Origin: Lysobacter sp. M2-1
GTDB taxonomy: Bacteria; Pseudomonadota; Gammaproteobacteria; Xanthomonadales; Xanthomonadaceae
Direction: 5' to 3'
Assembly (NCBI RefSeq): GCF_022662495.1
Contig: NZ_JAKPBU010000001.1
Span: 1,302,001-1,366,000, forward strand
DNA: 64,000 nucleotides
Shown here: piece after piece, positions 19,014-26,753 of the stretch
How positions within the stretch are numbered: the first letter of the stretch is position 1
Layout: the number at the start of each line of letters is the position of its first letter
Translations under genes and position numbers: made by a program
Notes under the pieces: generated by a model
Database searches by the model: none
Told to the model about the DNA's origin: nothing
Seen by the model: the letters and a program-made list of their open reading frames with translations, nothing else

Positions 19014-19560
19014 TTCGCTTGCCGGCGAGTTACTTTTCTTTGCTGGTGCACTGCGCCGAAGGCGCGAACGGCGAAGCCGGCCCGAAGGGCGAGCCACGTA
19101 GTGGCGAGTAAAGAAAAGTAACCAAAAGAAAGCACCCTTCTCGTGAGATCAAACCCGCTCAAGGGATGTGCGGTGTCGTTGCCATTTTCGCAGCGGACAT
19201 CCCTGTCCGCTCCGAAAACGGCCGGCATCCATGCCGGCCGCCCTCCGGGTGTCCGGATGCGGATCGCATGGCCCATGCCTTTGACTTTCCTGGTCCCGCA
19301 GTAGCTGTCAGCCCCCGGAAACCCCGAAGGGGCGGCGGCCATGGATGGCCGCCGTTTTCGGACCGAGCCATGGATGGCGAGTCCGAAAATTGCTTCGGCA
19401 TCCACATTCCTTGAGCGATGTGGATCCACTGAGGTGCTTTCTTTTGGTTACTTTTCTTTACTCGCCACTACGTGGCTCGCCCTTCGGGCCGGCTTCGCCG
19501 TTCGCGCCTTCGGCGCAGTGCACCAGCAAAGAAAGTAGCCCGCCGAAAGGCGGAAGCTCT
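19014..19560. repeat. Large palindromic intergenic element with perfect 102-bp arms
   Basis: The 629-base gap between ybhN and the metzincin gene holds a giant inverted repeat. Bases 19035-19136 and 19433-19534 are exact reverse complements; similarity continues outward to about 19014 and 19560, with a one-base slip in a T-run. The 296-base core (19137-19432) is itself an imperfect palindrome: CCGAAAACGGCCGGCATCC pairs with the complement of a copy near 19340-19360. Recognisable words are TACTTTTCTTT and AAGTAACCAAAAGAAAG. I see no transposase or coding potential. It reads as two head-to-head copies of a roughly 270-bp repeat unit. Confidence 0.9.
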
Positions 19561-19616: not shown

Positions 19617-21026
19617 TCATGGCTTGGTATAGGTGATCTCCAGCCGGTAGCTGCCTGCCGCATAGCCGCGCACCATGACGTGAATCTTGCTGCGGTTGCC
19701 CGGCACCTCGAGCTCGCAGGTTTCGTTGGCGTGGCTAAGGTAGGGACGGCAGTTCCAGCGGCTCGTGTCGGGCGGGCCGAGATAGCGCACGTACAGATCA
19801 GGATCGCCTGCATTTGCGCCGACGGCGGTCATGCGCACGGTCGCGATCGATCCGGGTTTCACGTCGAAGGCGCCGTACTGCTTCTTCTCGCCCTTGGCGA
19901 CGGCCTGGTTCTCGAAGACCTTGGTTTCCACGGTGCCGGTGGTCGGTGCGTCGGGGGCCTGGTAGACGCATTGCGCCAGATCCTCGGTATTGGCCGTGCC
20001 CTTGCCGTAGAGGCAGGCCGAACCGGCCTTGTCCAGCGCCGTCAGCTGCAGCGACCAGTCGCCGCCGCCGTTGCACTGCGGGTAGTGCATGACCGAGAAG
20101 CGGTCGTACTCGGTGATCGGAGTGAAATTGCTGTCCTCGAAGCAGGTGCCGGCTTCGGGCCGGGTATGTTCGTGGCGCAGCCCGAGCGCATGGCCCAGTT
20201 CGTGGCGCAGGATGCCGACCAGCGTCAGCGTGTCGTCCGGATCCATCTCGAACGATGAATTGTCGATCAGCACATTGCGGTCGGTGCGCGTGTCCGCGGG
20301 GAAGAAGGCGCGCGCCAGGTATTCGCCGTCCACGTCCACCGGGCGCACGTCGAACTCGACCTGGGGATTGCTGGCCGTGCAGCTGGCATCCTGAGCGGCG
20401 ACATGCACGAAGTCGACATCGGCCGCCTGTTCCCAGGCGTTGGTTGCCGCCACCATGTCGGCCACGACAGCGGCCTTGCGCGGGCCGAACTGATCGCTGA
20501 CGCAATAGTTCAGGCGCTTCCTGCGTGCGCTGGTCCAGATGTCGACGCCGCCGTCCACGCCCTGGGCCGCCGCGAGCGCGCGGACGGTGAGCTTGCCATG
20601 TGCGGTTTCGTCGTCCTCGCGCTGCAGGCTTTCGAAGAACTCCTGCAGGTGCTTGCGGTCGGCAATGGCCAGATCGCCGCTGACGATGTACTTGCCGTGT
20701 TCGCCCGGTTCCTTGAACACCGATGCCTCGAACTCCTCGAAGGTCTTGCCGCGCCACTTCTCGCGCGCGGCCTTGGCCGCGTCGGCGAGTTGTTGCTGCG
20801 CGGCTTCGATGGTCTGCTCGTTGGCTTCGACCGCACCGGTTGCGGGCCTGATGTCGTGGCTCGGCGGTCCTACCGGCTCCGCGGGAGGTGGGGTGGTGGT
20901 GGCCGACGGTGGCGTGGCGGGCGCGACAGGCTCGTCGCGCTTGCAGCCCGCAAGCGCGAAGGCGACGGCGACTACCAGCGCGAACGCCGGCATGGAGGAA
21001 TTTGACCGTAATGAGGGCAGGTTCAT
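19617..21026 (-). CDS. Lipoprotein metzincin zinc protease with PPC domain
   Basis: The 469-residue predicted lipoprotein has lipobox LAGC (Cys28), then a proline/threonine-rich tether (about residues 30-60). The catalytic domain carries the full metzincin motif HELGHALGLRHEH, with zinc ligands His275, His279 and His285, and the Met-turn candidate FSVMHYP. The C-terminal 110 residues resemble a bacterial pre-peptidase C-terminal domain (DPDLYVRYLGPP...YRLEITYTKP). It probably cuts proteins at or outside the envelope. Its ATG overlaps the stop of the proline-rich lipoprotein upstream, so the three genes from 23373 downward are coupled. Confidence 0.9.
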   Translation of the reverse strand: MNLPSLRSNSSMPAFALVVAVAFALAGCKRDEPVAPATPPSATTTPPPAEPVGPPSHDIRPATGAVEANEQTIEAAQQQLADAAKAAREKWRGKTFEEFEASVFKEPGEHGKYIVSGDLAIADRKHLQEFFESLQREDDETAHGKLTVRALAAAQGVDGGVDIWTSARRKRLNYCVSDQFGPRKAAVVADMVAATNAWEQAADVDFVHVAAQDASCTASNPQVEFDVRPVDVDGEYLARAFFPADTRTDRNVLIDNSSFEMDPDDTLTLVGILRHELGHALGLRHEHTRPEAGTCFEDSNFTPITEYDRFSVMHYPQCNGGGDWSLQLTALDKAGSACLYGKGTANTEDLAQCVYQAPDAPTTGTVETKVFENQAVAKGEKKQYGAFDVKPGSIATVRMTAVGANAGDPDLYVRYLGPPDTSRWNCRPYLSHANETCELEVPGNRSKIHVMVRGYAAGSYRLEITYTKP

Positions 21027-21655
21027 GGCTTGCTTTCCTTGGGGGACGGGCATGGCGCGTCGGAGACGTCGAGCAGCTCGACGCCCGCGGCGCGCTGGCG
21101 GATTTCGGACAGGGCGGCCTGCGCGTCCTTCGCGCTGCGGAATTCGGCGCACAGACGGGTTTCGCCTTCCAGGCCGATGCGCTGGGCGCGCAGATCGGTG
21201 ATGGCGTACGCGGAGCGCTGCTTGTCGAGCAGCGCGCGGATGTCGTTGTAGGCCGCGCGCGTGGCCTCGGGTACGCCCTTGCCGCGCGAGAGCATGGTGA
21301 CGGTAACCGTCGTCGGCGCCGTGTCGCCGGTTTGCGCAGCCGGGGGCGTCGGTTCCGGGGTGGTGGCCGGAGAGGGTGGCGGCGGCGGAGCGGGCGTCTG
21401 TGCCGGCGCTTCCGAAGAAGGCGTGGGCGATTCCGGCGGTGGTTTGGTTGCAGAAGGCGACGCAGACGTCGGCAATTCGCTTGTGGAAGGGGATGGCGGC
21501 TGTGGCGGCGAAGGCGCTGCCGCAGACGCATCCGCGGCGTCCTGCGCAGGCGCTTCGTCCGGGGGCGGCGGTGCCGGTGCGCTGCACGCCGCACCGATGC
21601 AGGCCGCGCCGAACACGGCCAGCGACAGGCTCGTCGGCTGGCGCGCTGCGTTCAC
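21023..21655 (-). CDS. Proline-rich lipoprotein of unknown function
   Basis: A 210-residue protein beginning with a GTG codon that overlaps the subtilisin stop (GTGA). It has a lipoprotein signal (GAACIGAACS), then about 90 residues composed mainly of Pro, Ala, Ser and Thr, then a compact C-terminal domain of about 95 residues starting near TTVTVTMLSRGKGVPEA. I cannot assign that domain. The long flexible linker would let it extend from the membrane. Coupling on both sides to protease genes suggests a structural, inhibitory or targeting partner of the proteases. Confidence 0.8.
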   Translation of the reverse strand: MNAARQPTSLSLAVFGAACIGAACSAPAPPPPDEAPAQDAADASAAAPSPPQPPSPSTSELPTSASPSATKPPPESPTPSSEAPAQTPAPPPPPSPATTPEPTPPAAQTGDTAPTTVTVTMLSRGKGVPEATRAAYNDIRALLDKQRSAYAITDLRAQRIGLEGETRLCAEFRSAKDAQAALSEIRQRAAGVELLDVSDAPCPSPKESKP

Positions 21656-23373
21656 GGCGTGGCCTGCAGCTTCGCGGCGAGCGCGCGCGAGGCCTTCGGC
21701 CGCAGGGTCGCAGCCGGCGCACGCAGCGCATCTGCACTGGGCGCATCGAGCGCCTGCCGGAAGGCATCCGGGTCGCGCATGGCCAGGTCGAGCAGTTCCG
21801 GCCCGAAGCGCCGTAGCGTCGCATCGAGCGTCCCCGGTTCCGCGGACAGCATGCGCTGCAGGCCCGATCGGACTTCAGCCGGATCGCGGTCGAGCGTACG
21901 CGAGAGCAGGTTCACCGTGTCGTCCTGCGGCGGCGCGCGCAGCTGGGTGCGCGGCGCGCCGAGCGGCTGCCGCAGCAGCGCGTCCAGGTCGAGGATGCCC
22001 GCGCCGAAGCGCGAGGTGTCGAAGCCGGCCGGCTTGCGCGCGCTGGCCTGCATCGCCTGGACGAACAGGTCGCGCCGGGTCAGGCTGCCCCGCGCCGCGT
22101 CGATGCGCGCGCGTCCGTGGAAGGCGAGCCAGTCCGCGGCTGCACCGGCGACCGCTGCGGTGGCGAATGAAGTGCCGTTGCCCGGGCTTGCGCGCGTGCC
22201 GGTCGTCCCCGCGACCGCATCGGCGACATACACGTCCTCTCCGGGAGCGGCGATGTCGACCGCGCGGCCCTTCGACGAGCCCTTCCATGGCTTGTCCTGC
22301 GCATTGGTCGCCGCCACCGCGATCGCGTTGTCGTAGGACGCCGGCGCCACCACCATGCCGATGCAGTTGCCGGCAGCGTTGACCACGATCGTGCCGCGAC
22401 GCACCGCGTCGTTGATCGCGCGCTCGAGGCCGAAGAACGCGCGCCCGCCCAGGCTCATCGAGATCACGTCGCACTGCGCGGTGGTCGCGTGCCGCACAGC
22501 GCGCGCGGTATTGCTGTCGAGCACCCGCACCACGCTGTTGAAGGTGCGGATCGGCACCAGCGTCGCCTTCGGCGCCAGGCCGACCACGGTGCCGGGCGCC
22601 GTGGTGCCGCTGGAGGCGCCGAAGCCGCCGTCGCTGACGATCACACTGCCGGTCTTGGTGCCGTGGCCGGGATTGCCCTGATAGCCGAGCGGATCGCGCG
22701 CGTCGCTGCCGCCCTCCATCAGGTTCAGCGACTGGCTGCGGTCGATGCGCGCGCCGTCGAGATCCACGTGGTCGGTCCATCCGCTGTCGGGATGGCATAC
22801 GCGCACGCCCTCGCCGAGCGTCTTGCCGCCAGCGGGCGGCGTCAGTCGGCGCGCCTGCGGCACGCGCATCGCAGCCAGCGACCAGGCCGGATCGGCAGGC
22901 GCCGGCACGCCGTCGTCGCCGAAACACGCGGTCACCGCACTGCGCTTCTGCGCCTCGACCAGGGTGTCCTCGGTATCGGGTTCGACGCGGACGAATCCGC
23001 CGCGCTCCTGCAGCGCGTAGGCCTGGTCCCAGGCGCCAGCGCCGCTGGTGACCGGATCGGCCACGCGCACGCGCCAGATGCGCGACAGGCCCTCGGGATC
23101 GTCGGCCGCATCGGCGTCGGGGAACAGGCGTTCGATCGAAACCACGTCGGCGAAGATGTCTTCGGCGGCGCTGCGCAGGTCGGCTTCGGTCTGCTGCGGT
23201 GCCAGTTCGACCGCATAGCCCTGGGCGTAGGCCGCGGGCGTCGCCGGCTCCGGCACGGGCGTGGAAGGTGGTGTCGGGGTCTGCGCGGGCGTCGGCTCTG
23301 CGGGCGGTGCGGCGCGGTTGCATGCGGTGGTCGACACGAGAAACAGGAGGCAGACGGCGAACACAGCGCGCAT
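21652..23373 (-). CDS. Lipoprotein subtilisin-like (S8) serine protease
   Basis: The 573-residue protein has a lipobox STTAC (Cys18), a proline-rich linker to about residue 45, a possible propeptide to about 165, and a catalytic S8 domain. The triad is Asp196 in PDSG, His237 in GHGTKTGSVI and Ser402 in GTSFATAAVAG, with oxyanion Asn336 in AAGN. After about residue 440 comes a helical tail (LLSRTLDRDPAEVRSGL...) not typical of S8 enzymes. It is expected to be an envelope-anchored endoprotease. It heads the coupled lipoprotein operon, and the trypsin-like gene lies 65 bases upstream on the same strand. Confidence 0.92.
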   Translation of the reverse strand: MRAVFAVCLLFLVSTTACNRAAPPAEPTPAQTPTPPSTPVPEPATPAAYAQGYAVELAPQQTEADLRSAAEDIFADVVSIERLFPDADAADDPEGLSRIWRVRVADPVTSGAGAWDQAYALQERGGFVRVEPDTEDTLVEAQKRSAVTACFGDDGVPAPADPAWSLAAMRVPQARRLTPPAGGKTLGEGVRVCHPDSGWTDHVDLDGARIDRSQSLNLMEGGSDARDPLGYQGNPGHGTKTGSVIVSDGGFGASSGTTAPGTVVGLAPKATLVPIRTFNSVVRVLDSNTARAVRHATTAQCDVISMSLGGRAFFGLERAINDAVRRGTIVVNAAGNCIGMVVAPASYDNAIAVAATNAQDKPWKGSSKGRAVDIAAPGEDVYVADAVAGTTGTRASPGNGTSFATAAVAGAAADWLAFHGRARIDAARGSLTRRDLFVQAMQASARKPAGFDTSRFGAGILDLDALLRQPLGAPRTQLRAPPQDDTVNLLSRTLDRDPAEVRSGLQRMLSAEPGTLDATLRRFGPELLDLAMRDPDAFRQALDAPSADALRAPAATLRPKASRALAAKLQATP

Positions 23374-23438
23374 GTGGATGACCCCGGACTGGCTTTGAAG
23401 GGAAGGGCGGATGAACGATCGGACGTGCGGGGGTTCCA

Positions 23439-24932
23439 TCACGTCCCCGGCTGCACGCATACGCGCGGATCGCTGCGCCATTCCGGGGCGGCGGCGTCCA
23501 GGCGTTCGATGACCTTGGCGATCGGCAGGACCGCCTCGTGCGAGCGCCAGCCCGGTGCCCAAGGCTGCGACAGGTCTTCCTGCCCGTCGAACAGCAGCCC
23601 CACGACCGCATGACTGCGGCGGTGGTAGACCGGCGAGCCGGAATTGCCGCGATAGGTATCGCTGTCCACGCCGATCGTGGGCTGCTGACCGAAGCGCACG
23701 CTGATGTACTCGTAGTACGGCGCGTCGCCGTCCTCGCGGCGCTGGTAGCTGTCGACGAATTCCTTGAGCTTGCCCTCGCGATAGGACTGTTCCTCGGCCG
23801 CGATCGAATCGAACTCCGCGCTGACCAGCAGCTTGAGTTCGATGTACTCGTCCTCGCTCAGCCGGAACGGGAAGTACACGAAGGTGTTGTCGTGCACGGT
23901 GCGTGGTTCGCCCAGCGGATAGCCGACCACGTACAGCGGCTCGTCGCGCAACACGCGTGCGGTCGACAGGCACTGCACCGGATACAGCGCGCCGGGCAGG
24001 GCGCCGGTTTCGTTCGCGCCCAGTTCGAGCAGGACGAAGTCGAGCTTGCCGCGCTCGTCCTCGTCGGTCAGGCGGATCGCATTCACGGGAAAGGTCTTGC
24101 GCGGCAGCTGGTTGCCAGCCAGGTCATCCTCGTAGTCGAACATCGCCTCGAATTCGTCCGGCGCCTCTTCGAAGATGCAATGGTTGTTGGTCAGGGCCAA
24201 CCGCTCTCCGATCAGCACCGCGCTGCAGCGCGGCTTATCCTCATTGCGCGAACGCAGGGCGAAGGCGCCGCGCGAGTTGGCGTAGATGCGCTCGTAGGTC
24301 TGCGGCGGATAGCGGTCGTCGCGGCCGTACAGCGATTTCTCCAGGCGGCGCAACTCTGCGTGCTGCTCGACCAGGGCGCGCTGTTCGCTGCGGTCGCCTT
24401 CCGGCAGCGTCTTGTAGGCCGCGACCACCTGTTGCTGCGCGACATCGGTCGCCTGCTTGAGCTGTCGCAGGTCGGCCTCGCTTGCGTCGGGCGCGAGCGC
24501 GCGTTCGGCGACCGCGTCCAGCCGCTGCTGCGCGACATCGACGTTGCGGTACTTCGCGCGCCAGGCCGGCGAGCGGTCGTTCCAGTTCTTGCTCGCCTGC
24601 AGCTGCACGTCCTGCACCTGCACCGCTTCGCCCGGCGCATCGCTGATCACGGCCTGCACCGGCATCTGCCGTACCTGCTGGGAGATGACATCGGGGTTGG
24701 CCACCGGCACCGCGCCGTCTGCGGTCTGCAGCACGGCGCGATCGCCCTGCTTGGTGATCTCCACCGGCACTGCCACGCCTTGCGGTCGGGACAGGACCCG
24801 TTCGCGCAGGGCATCGCTGCTGATGCGCTGCTTGGCGGGAGCATCCTGTGCGGAGGCCGCCGCCGCTGACAACGAAGCTGCGATCGCGCCGAGCACCAGC
24901 GCGTGGCGGACGTACCGAAATCGGGAACCCAT
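23439..24932 (-). CDS. Exported trypsin-like serine protease
   Basis: The 497-residue protein has a signal peptide (cleavage near AAASA|QDA), a charged alpha-helical N-terminal half (about 30-220) rich in Gln and Glu, and a chymotrypsin-fold domain. The triad is His251 in LTNNHCIF, Asp298 in KLDFVLLEL and Ser431 in GNSGSPVY. The helical half suggests a coiled-coil or partner-binding module. It is first in the row of three protease genes and could activate the downstream subtilisin, as in a zymogen cascade; this is inference from order only. Confidence 0.9.
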   Translation of the reverse strand: MGSRFRYVRHALVLGAIAASLSAAAASAQDAPAKQRISSDALRERVLSRPQGVAVPVEITKQGDRAVLQTADGAVPVANPDVISQQVRQMPVQAVISDAPGEAVQVQDVQLQASKNWNDRSPAWRAKYRNVDVAQQRLDAVAERALAPDASEADLRQLKQATDVAQQQVVAAYKTLPEGDRSEQRALVEQHAELRRLEKSLYGRDDRYPPQTYERIYANSRGAFALRSRNEDKPRCSAVLIGERLALTNNHCIFEEAPDEFEAMFDYEDDLAGNQLPRKTFPVNAIRLTDEDERGKLDFVLLELGANETGALPGALYPVQCLSTARVLRDEPLYVVGYPLGEPRTVHDNTFVYFPFRLSEDEYIELKLLVSAEFDSIAAEEQSYREGKLKEFVDSYQRREDGDAPYYEYISVRFGQQPTIGVDSDTYRGNSGSPVYHRRSHAVVGLLFDGQEDLSQPWAPGWRSHEAVLPIAKVIERLDAAAPEWRSDPRVCVQPGT

Positions 24933-25199
24933 GACTCCAACCTCCGGGGGAAGGTGTGTCGCACTGCGCATTGGCGCAGCTGATGGGGACAACGCCGTTT
25001 GTCGCGGGTGTGGGCCAACATTGCGGCCTTCACGCGTGCGCTCACACTTTTGCCGGGCAGCCGACACATTTTGGCTGCGGCTGTCCGCTGTGGGCGAAGG
25101 CCTGCGTTGTCGCCATGAAACGGCACCAGGCCGCGTCCGCCGTGCGACGCAGCCCTCGCGATGCTTCCCCACGCCCGCGCCCCCGCGCGAGGAGGTTTC

Positions 25200-26753
25200 A
25201 TGCACATCCGTCGTACGCGGCTCGCCATCGCCTTGCTGGCACCGCTCGCCCTGGCGACCTGCGCACGCGAGGACGTGCGCGATGCGGCGCCCGCCGCCGC
25301 AACCGGGACATCGGCGACCGCAGTCGCCAGGGAAGAAGCTGGCGATGCCGTCGATGCGCGCACCGCGCTGCTACCCGCCGCCAGTGACTGCGCGCCCGGC
25401 GCGCGCTGCCTGTCGGTCACCGGCACCGGGCGCCCACAGGCGAGCGGCAGCTTCGTCGCGCAGTGCCGCGGCAGGTTCGCCGACTTCATCGTGCCGAAGG
25501 CGACGTTGCCCAATGGCTACGACGGCCCATGGTTCCAGCCCAACCTGCTCGAGCAGGCGTCGACCGGCGTTCCGAGCGGCTCGCGACCATGGCGCGCATT
25601 CGATCCGCGCGATCCGGACGAACGCCTGGCCTACGCACTGGCGCTGCGCAATTACGCCTTCAGCAGCGCCGCCGCGCGCGCGCTGACGCCTAACCTCAGC
25701 GCCGATTCGCACTACTTCGACCCTGGTGGCGGCAGCGTGCCCGCGTCCCAGCGCAACCAGAAGTGGTATCCGGCGCCACGAATGTTCTACGGCCCGACCA
25801 ACGCGCCGGGCACGCGCGAAGCCGCGCACGGCATGACCCTGGAGCGCACCGTGCGCGTCGGCGAACTCGGCGACAACACGATCGCCTTCCAGAACTATGC
25901 GGTGGCCTACTACGATGCCCGCGGTGGGCGCATCTTCCAGCGCCTGTGGAACACGTCCGAGGACGGCGTCGACACGCCGCGCCTGAACCGCATGCGCTTT
26001 GCCGAGCACAGCTTCGTGTTCAAACTACTGTTCAGCGCCGCACCGGCGAATGCGTTCCCGCAGGACCTGCTCACCGGTGCGCTGCAGGTCGATATCCTGC
26101 CGAACCCCGATGCCGATCCGGTGCGGGTGCGGCTGATGCAGATCGACATCGCGGTGAAGGACAAGCGCGCCGGTGCCACCGGCTGGTACTTCGCCACCTA
26201 CGCCTACGACCGCAGCCTGCCCGGCACCTCGCCGTGGAAGAAGATGGCGCCGGTCGGACTGATGTGGGGCAACGATCCGGGCGGTCCGCCGATCGAACAG
26301 TCATGGATCAATCCCGACGCGCCGGCATACGCGCGTGCGCATCTGGGTGTCGACGACCGCCTCAACGGCCCGGTCGACAACCCGGCCTCTGCATGCATGA
26401 GCTGCCACAGCACCGCGCAGGCACCGGTGGTTGCGAGCATGCTGCCGAGCGGCGCGTGCGCGCAGACCCATCGCGACGACTGGTTCCGCAACCTGTCAGG
26501 CACGACCGCGTTCGGTCGCCGCCAGAACAGCGGCGGCAGTTGCCAGACGTCCGCCTCCGGCCTCGACCTCGCCGCCGCCGATTACTCGCTGCAGATGGCC
26601 GCGACCGTGGATCGCGCGCTCGACGGCGATACGTTCAACCCCTGCACGTGGGACGAGGACAACCCGCCCACCGCGCTGGTCGCGGCACCGGTGGATGCGC
26701 TCAGACGCGAGGACGTCGAACGGTTCGAGGTGACCCGCGATCCGCCGGAGTAG
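25200..26753 (+). CDS. Lipoprotein with a single c-type haem motif
   Basis: The 517-residue protein starts at ATG 25200 behind a strong site (GAGGAGG). It has a lipobox ALATC (Cys21) and one CxxCH haem site, CMSCH at 399-403, in a protein otherwise free of cytochrome-like repeats. The large central region (WYPAPRMFYGPTNAP, ...SWINPDAPAYARAHLG) belongs to a conserved but uncharacterised cytochrome-like family by my reading. It is probably a periplasmic electron carrier or redox enzyme subunit. It is divergent from the trypsin-like gene (267-base gap). Its TAG stop lies within a GTAG hairpin repeat. Confidence 0.8.
   Translation: MHIRRTRLAIALLAPLALATCAREDVRDAAPAAATGTSATAVAREEAGDAVDARTALLPAASDCAPGARCLSVTGTGRPQASGSFVAQCRGRFADFIVPKATLPNGYDGPWFQPNLLEQASTGVPSGSRPWRAFDPRDPDERLAYALALRNYAFSSAAARALTPNLSADSHYFDPGGGSVPASQRNQKWYPAPRMFYGPTNAPGTREAAHGMTLERTVRVGELGDNTIAFQNYAVAYYDARGGRIFQRLWNTSEDGVDTPRLNRMRFAEHSFVFKLLFSAAPANAFPQDLLTGALQVDILPNPDADPVRVRLMQIDIAVKDKRAGATGWYFATYAYDRSLPGTSPWKKMAPVGLMWGNDPGGPPIEQSWINPDAPAYARAHLGVDDRLNGPVDNPASACMSCHSTAQAPVVASMLPSGACAQTHRDDWFRNLSGTTAFGRRQNSGGSCQTSASGLDLAAADYSLQMAATVDRALDGDTFNPCTWDEDNPPTALVAAPVDALRREDVERFEVTRDPPE

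Follow-up and report, generated by a model that had tools for sequence, protein, structure and literature searches.

A conserved row of trypsin-like, subtilisin-like and metzincin protease genes with a small ferredoxin-like partner in Lysobacter sp. M2-1 and its recurrence in other bacteria

In a window of 64,000 nucleotides of the Lysobacter sp. M2-1 genome (contig NZ_JAKPBU010000001.1, positions 1,302,001 to 1,366,000), which is the whole stretch of DNA analyzed here, we identified a row of four co-directional genes, P1 to P4, with frames open throughout (Table 1). An initial annotation of this DNA had placed a trypsin-like enzyme, a subtilisin and a metzincin in series with a proline-rich partner, and this composition is confirmed by Pfam searches and by the coordinates. 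The overlaps behind the translational coupling that it had proposed for the last three genes are likewise present: the P2 stop codon overlaps with the GTG start of P3 (GTGA) and the P3 stop codon with the ATG start of P4 (ATGA), by 4 nucleotides at each junction. P1 and P2 are separated by 65 nucleotides. A promoter scan found no promoter-like site, and a terminator scan returned 2 terminator-like sites versus 3.3 in shuffled sequence.

Table 1. Positions within the window of the four-gene row, of two segments of its products and of the adjacent divergent gene
Feature	Coordinates	Strand	Description
P1	23439..24932	-	497 amino acids; exported trypsin-like S1 (Trypsin_2) protease; ~200-residue N-terminal extension
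P2	21652..23373	-	573 amino acids; subtilisin-like S8 lipoprotein; Pro-rich tether, N-terminal pro-region
P3	21023..21655	-	210 amino acids, GTG start; lipoprotein, ~85-residue Pro-rich tether, conserved C-terminal domain
P3 conserved domain	21026..21331	-	alignment of 32 sequences; AlphaFold (AF2) model
P4	19617..21026	-	469 amino acids; metzincin zinc-protease lipoprotein (matrix metalloproteinase/astacin-like): pro-segment, catalytic domain, C-terminal PPC-like domain
P4 putative aspartate-switch segment GKYIVSGDLAIA	20661..20696	-	residues 111-122, Asp118; position confirmed by translation
Divergent gene, lipoprotein-like, CxxCH motif	25161..26753	+	530 amino acids; possible accessory member

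P1 matches the Pfam family Trypsin_2 at 46.2 bits (cut-off 27.6) and P2 matches Peptidase_S8 at 107.2 bits (cut-off 21.8). Inspection of the translations by eye revealed the catalytic motifs NNHC, LDFV and GNSGSP in P1, DSG, GHGT and GTSFAT in P2, and the zinc motif HELGHALGLRHEH with the Met-turn SVMHY in P4; all three enzymes have complete catalytic motifs, in line with the complete active sites claimed before. P1 carries an ordinary Sec-type signal without a lipobox, while lipobox-like signals followed by proline-rich stretches are visible by eye in P2 (STTAC), P3 (IGAAC) and P4 (LAGC), in agreement with the prediction that these three products are lipoproteins with proline-rich tethers. 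P1 is one of three Trypsin_2 matches over the cut-off in this genome. Among the PADLOC models of anti-phage defence, P2, P3 and P4 had no match at E 0.01, and P1 had only weak matches, to the RT-Protease_XI and LmuA models (E 0.0009-0.003).

Relatives of P4 were compared at 85 distinct loci, comprising the best 80 of the 281 found in genome contigs together with those of the window and of the Lysobacteraceae and other sample genomes G031, G061, G077 and G200; L029 (in G098) was dropped because it is the same place as L036. P4 itself scores 43.0 bits on Matrixin (M10; cut-off 24) and 25.4 bits on Astacin (PF01400, M12A; cut-off 22.5). The zinc motif HExxHxxGxxH is complete in 84 of the 85 loci, the exception being L091 (HELGHTLAFRH), and the Met-turn S[VTAI]MHY is found in all 85, which places the family in the metzincin clan (M10/M12A). 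Glu286, the glutamate after the third histidine that is an astacin trait, is invariant in an alignment of 32 chosen relatives. P4 therefore mixes features of matrix metalloproteinases (MMPs) and astacins: it shares with the latter HExxHxxGxxHE, the SxMHY Met-turn and, in part, the pro-segment motif (xGD), but passes the M10 cut-off by more than the Astacin one. The xGD segment upstream of the catalytic domain is conserved, with the aspartate present in 83 of the 84 readable loci (L105 has histidine, and L075 is cut off at this point); relative to the astacin motif FXGDI, the GD is retained and the F and I positions differ.

In animal astacins the aspartate switch is carried by the pro-peptide motif FXGDI, and karilysin is also kept latent by an aspartate, as opposed to the bacterial myroilysin, which is without FXGDI and uses a cysteine switch, according to PMC9629494 and, for the astacins, PMC9848320. 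The AF2 model of P4 has a mean predicted local distance difference test score (pLDDT) of 77.8. Its best structural matches are myroilysin (5zjk; Z 13.3, root mean square deviation (rmsd) 3.4, 164 residues) and, tied with it, karilysin (Z 13.3, rmsd 2.6-2.8). The karilysin structure that includes the pro-peptide along with the catalytic domain (4r3v) aligns with Z 12.6 and rmsd 3.0 over 160 residues, and this alignment begins at residue 117 of the P4 model, next to Asp118, paired with chain residue 25, which we take to be the switch residue (Asp25) of karilysin. Latency of P4 through Asp118 is likely.

The proline-rich partner proved to be conserved, but in a different part of the molecule from the one that the initial annotation had stressed. 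P3 as a whole matches no Pfam family over the cut-off, and no convincing Pfam family was found for its conserved part, a C-terminal ferredoxin-like domain of ~95 residues. The alignment of 32 chosen sequences has 10 invariant columns, two cysteines and positions within the LSRGKGVP and GLEGE stretches among them. The domain is modelled as beta-alpha-beta-beta-alpha-beta with a mean pLDDT of 90.1, a fold in which the two stretches are predicted to share one end. The tether, by comparison, has 15-32 prolines in the Lysobacteraceae rows versus 0-4 in the 23 other rows, so the proline-rich character is confined to this family; the lipobox pattern of P3 occurs in most Lysobacteraceae and in a minority of the other loci. 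Fold searches returned only generic ferredoxin-like proteins (best VIA Z 8.7), and the best hit of a sequence profile search (E 0.0009) covers part of a glycosyltransferase. Weak Pfam matches to Gasdermin in 4 of the 32 members were rejected as too short for that model; the three members examined scored 20.3-22 bits, below the cut-off of 25, over ~56 residues. Derivation of P3 from an Inhibitor_I9 propeptide is unsupported by sequence: this family is missing from the 21 Pfam families that the 32 members matched at E values up to 1, and hhalign gave a probability of 0.4% for P3 against the P2 pro-region. The ferredoxin-like fold type alone still allows such descent, and propeptide structures are absent from the VIA match list for P3, an absence that excludes nothing. 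The P3 family appears to be new.

Conservation within the family was assessed in 119 Lysobacteraceae genomes, the window's own included; in most genome searches the number of first-look candidates scored for each genome was limited, so misses are possible. P4, the P3 domain and P1 were found together in the same 5 of the 119 genomes, and 4 of these also have P2; the genes are neighbours throughout and their order does not vary. G061 retains P1, P3 and P4, with no P2 match found there. P1 has neighbouring homologues, 66-71% identical, in the 4 other carriers. The cassette is patchily distributed (4 of 54 genera), and its gene order is identical in all five carriers, apart from the subtilisin missing in G061, and in six named Lysobacteraceae loci. 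A start for P3 at -4 nucleotides from the end of the S8 gene is available in 7 of the 8 Lysobacteraceae loci tested. For P4, the candidate starts include an ATG at -4 from the end of P3 in 6 of the 9 distinct relatives from this family and one at +5 in 2, and the sole listed P4 start after P3 in L032 is a TTG at +35; in the acidobacterial locus L049 the ATG is likewise at -4. Farther afield, a sample of 398 genomes across the phylum contained P3 in 1 and P4 in 2, including the window's genome, and P4 was found in G200 alone among 190 genomes of its class.

Beside P4 at the 85 loci, we detected the P3 domain in 34 loci from four phyla, S8 in 20, S1 in 25, and S8 together with S1 in 19. All three neighbours are present at 11 loci (9 from Lysobacteraceae, Woeseia L056 and Bradyrhizobium L103), P3 with S1 at 3 (L031, L052, L053) and P3 with S8 at 1 (acidobacterial L049), while P3 is the only neighbour at 19 loci, 14 of them from Nitrospirota. 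S8 and S1 without a detected P3 characterize 8 alphaproteobacterial loci; S1 alone adjoins P4 at 3 loci (L057, L060, L075), and none of the three genes does at 40, namely 36 mostly from Myxococcota plus L039, L064, L109 and L110 (in L039, L064 and L075 the contig ends cut the side in question). These calls come from profile searches of all frames, with Pfam confirmation of the neighbours at a sample of loci. P4 is preceded by the P3 domain in 33 of the 34 loci and followed by it in L103. The order S1-S8-P3-P4 of the window is replaced by P4-S8-S1 in Alphaproteobacteria, P3-P4-S8-S1 in Woeseia, P3-P4-S1 in L052 and L053, S8-P3-P4 in the acidobacterium and [S1+S8 fusion]-S1-P4-P3 in Bradyrhizobium; S8 and/or S1 also occur near P4 in Desulfobulbales and Chromatiales. 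The initial annotation had made its reading depend on gene order, and that objection fails, because the order is conserved within the family and P4 has neighbours of the same protease classes in other classes and phyla of bacteria.

All S8 and S1 matches at E <= 1e-3 are encoded on the same strand as P4, no more than about 5 kb away from it. The flanks of 83 loci span 758 kb within 5.5 kb of P4 and 385 kb farther out, and the absence of matches in the farther part is weak evidence, because roughly a single S8 is all that this length would be expected to contain (genome-wide density, as a rough yardstick, ~0.03 per 10 kb) and the S1 profile leans to P4 neighbours. That profile was built solely from proteins beside P4, which makes S1 elsewhere in the flanks the most prone to under-counting; the S8 profile combines 6 proteins beside P4 with 8 from the window's genome and may also under-count. 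Carriage of the cassette on plasmids found no support in 72,556 plasmid records, where the P3 domain had no match and P4 had two partial ones, which cover 53% and 49% of the query at less than 60% identity.

Several other genes were observed near P4. Papain-like C1 protease genes occur without P3 in L060 (4574-6751), directly upstream of P4, and in L109 (493-1266), one gene further. An amidohydrolase-type gene (L066:7011-8693; Pfam was run on L066 only) has homologous frames in seven alphaproteobacterial loci and stands directly before P4 in L066, L068, L073 and L086, whose orders were inspected. Upstream of P3-P4 in L040 (3974-5230) there is a lipoprotein-like gene of ~419 amino acids without a Pfam match and with homologues in eight Nitrospirota loci. 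The myxococcal relatives of P4 (L071:9001-10359 and others among L061-L111) are solitary, and many have a second copy of the C-terminal domain.

Of the 35 readable P4-only rows, mostly from Myxococcota, 7 were kept for the P4 tree, from which L091 was excluded. In this tree, two betaproteobacterial P3-P4 pairs lacking S1 and S8 form the sister group of the Lysobacteraceae clade (92/91). Further clades are formed by Alphaproteobacteria together with Woeseia (99/97) and by a group from Desulfobulbales (100/98). In the S8 tree, the Lysobacteraceae proteins (100/100) are separate from those of Alphaproteobacteria and Woeseia (94/94), and the S8 of the acidobacterium clusters with ordinary subtilases encoded in the window's genome (84/90). 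Resolution was poor in the S1 tree, and our conclusions rest on the other two. Given the other gene orders and the separate S8 lineages, the association of S8/S1 with P4 probably arose more than once; the separation of the S8 lineages favours recruitment on more than one occasion over loss.

The presence of similar sets in distant lineages suggests that these components work together outside the cytoplasm. That the row is a conserved functional module is well supported; what we infer is its mechanism (latency through Asp118, P3-P4 binding and activation by S1/S8), together with location at the cell surface and repeated independent assembly. Tentatively, and with somewhat less than even confidence, we propose a module built around a latent P4, with P3 as its inhibitor or chaperone and S1 and S8 activating or assisting it. 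P4 would be exported as a zymogen in which Asp118 of the pro-segment xGD blocks the catalytic zinc (an aspartate switch), and P3, made together with P4 from overlapping genes, would bind it as a cognate inhibitor or chaperone in the manner of potempins. S1 and S8 would be recruited partners that cut the P4 pro-segment and/or P3 or, alternatively, help to degrade the substrates of P4. The role of cognate inhibitor is favoured for P3 because the layout of the window's row, a small lipoprotein gene followed by a protease gene, is also that of the KLIKK proteases and potempins of Tannerella forsythia, in which an exported protease, such as the MMP-like karilysin, is directly preceded by the gene for a small lipoprotein (PMC7296668, PMC4404884), and potempins are reported to inhibit specifically the co-expressed protease (PMC7296668). 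The window's row differs in putting three protease classes with one partner, and the KLIKK C-terminal motif is missing at the ends of all four translations. Potempin A has a TIMP-like fold, unlike P3.

The initial annotation had envisaged a protease assembly or an activation cascade, with the proline-rich protein as a possible scaffold or inhibitor; both roles are still candidates for P3. A cascade is made plausible by the aspartate-switch-like pro-segment of P4. Its fullest form would be an extracytoplasmic zymogen cascade, comparable in logic to animal protease cascades, in which an aspartate-switch metzincin is held latent by a ferredoxin-like inhibitor, P3, and freed by independently recruited S1 and S8 proteases; we regard this complete scheme as doubtful. 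For a trypsin site, the P4 linker between switch and catalytic domain, excised by an arbitrary rule, was searched for lysine or arginine. Such a residue is present in all Lysobacteraceae rows, but the mixed result across loci led us to reject this site as a general rule. Anchoring in the envelope, also part of that annotation, is predicted for most Lysobacteraceae and Nitrospirota (the P4 lipobox pattern is found in 8 of 9 distinct relatives and 13 of 15 loci, respectively) but does not extend to Alphaproteobacteria.

A number of observations weigh against the proposed module or its cascade form. S1-bearing loci L056, L068, L069, L086 and L103 have a P4 linker without lysine or arginine, and the low-confidence stretches of the P4 model (139-146 and 151-158) fall within this very linker. 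The first Foldseek matches of the model, the astacin zymogens 8a28 and 4gwm, count in favour of a zymogen, but their template modelling (TM) scores are 0.2-0.3 and the rmsd is over 20 Å. The fold type of P3 is very common. Of the 19 loci that have both S8 and S1, 8 showed no detectable P3; the 14 Nitrospirota P3-P4 loci, several on short contigs, are without S1 or S8 beside P4, and P4 stands by itself in the 36 mostly myxococcal loci, so P4 can do without these partners. The clades of the P4 tree meet at a fork that the tree leaves unresolved, and one early gain of S1 followed by losses is therefore also possible. The lipobox pattern of P4, a simple one, occurs in 0 of 9 alphaproteobacterial loci, which argues against general envelope anchoring. 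A fixed outer-membrane site is also questioned by L028 and L035, in which the residue next after the lipobox cysteine of P2 is aspartate; lipoproteins are sorted by the residue at +2, and aspartate there is an inner-membrane retention signal.

P3 could instead be an assembly or stability subunit, the whole module forming one multi-enzyme envelope complex. The main precedent is the dentilisin of Treponema denticola (prcB-prcA-prtP), a lipoprotein operon that encodes the S8 protease PrtP and a small lipoprotein, PrcB, a subunit needed for PrtP rather than inhibiting it; as described in PMC8167434, this system has one protease only, as opposed to three in the window's row. P2 scores 41.4 bits on the NCBIfam PrtP equivalog, far below its cut-off of 300. 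Overlapping genes would fit subunit assembly, and the two invariant stretches of P3 are as expected of an interface. Nevertheless, the P3 gene tracks the metzincin and not the subtilisin: of the 65 loci where no S8 was detected, 22 carry it. We consider a PrcB-like role unlikely.

Equally unlikely, in our judgment, is a plain nutrient-scavenging cluster, in which exported proteases under one promoter would carry out broad degradation without a cascade or mutual regulation. All four products here have export signals, and the window's genome contains 12 S8 genes (13 matches, two sharing one open frame). C1 proteases also adjoin P4 in L060 and L109, so the protease class may matter little. However, scavenging leaves unexplained the gene overlaps, the conserved switch motif and the P3 domain, which was found only in P4-bearing genomes of the samples searched. 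It is highly improbable that P3 is a substrate from which the proteases release a signal or effector peptide or domain: although it is small, exported, equipped with a long flexible tether in Lysobacteraceae and kept beside the protease in 34 of the 85 loci, the part of it that is conserved is modelled as a well-folded domain (pLDDT 90), and L103 aside, none was detected in the alphaproteobacterial P4-S8-S1 loci, 8 in number.

The nearest precedent for the combination is 'System 3', a predicted conflict system found mostly in Alphaproteobacteria that pairs a trypsin-like peptidase with a NucA endonuclease and sometimes S8, and for which a proteolytic cascade has been proposed (PMC7159879). It resembles the loci described here in combining trypsin-like and S8 proteases, which are sometimes fused into a single polypeptide (cf. 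the Trypsin_2+S8 fusion of L103), but the section that describes it names neither a metzincin nor a P3-like protein. We rejected the cassette as a NucA conflict system: in the 19 genomes searched, no NucA gene (Endonuclease_NS, PF01223) adjoins P4, and the family exceeds the cut-off in 3 of them (G031 and those of L086 and L103), never on the P4 contig. PMC6790972 concerns proteases of a sponge archaeon, an unrelated matter. No description of three proteases combined with P3 was found in the open literature, to which the search was confined (subscription papers lay outside it), so the earlier statement that no system of this composition has been described stands in that scope, tempered by the partial similarity of System 3. 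The components each resemble known kinds, and their combination appears to be new.

The divergent gene beyond P1 encodes a lipoprotein-like protein with no Pfam family over the cut-off. It is present in 3 of the 119 family genomes, all of them cassette carriers (two of the five carriers are without it), and it also adjoins the cassette in L033-L037. In Hoeflea halophila, the gene upstream of the cluster encodes a RoxA-like cytochrome c (L062:4510-6459), a possible parallel to it. Just downstream of P4 there is a perfect 102-nucleotide inverted repeat (19035-19534; arms 19035-19136 and 19433-19534) that encloses two shorter inverted repeats. Elsewhere in the genome its arm has four near-complete copies (91-94% identical) and one partial copy, two of these copies being at contig ends.

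If the proposed reading is correct, these loci would define a bacterial metzincin zymogen family that spans several phyla, together with a new candidate inhibitor family, and three protease classes would have been brought together, probably more than once. P3 would then be a candidate for a new inhibitor, itself a small protein, of enzymes of the MMP/astacin type, and the row in Lysobacter would offer a concrete and testable example of a bacterial protease cascade outside pathogens.

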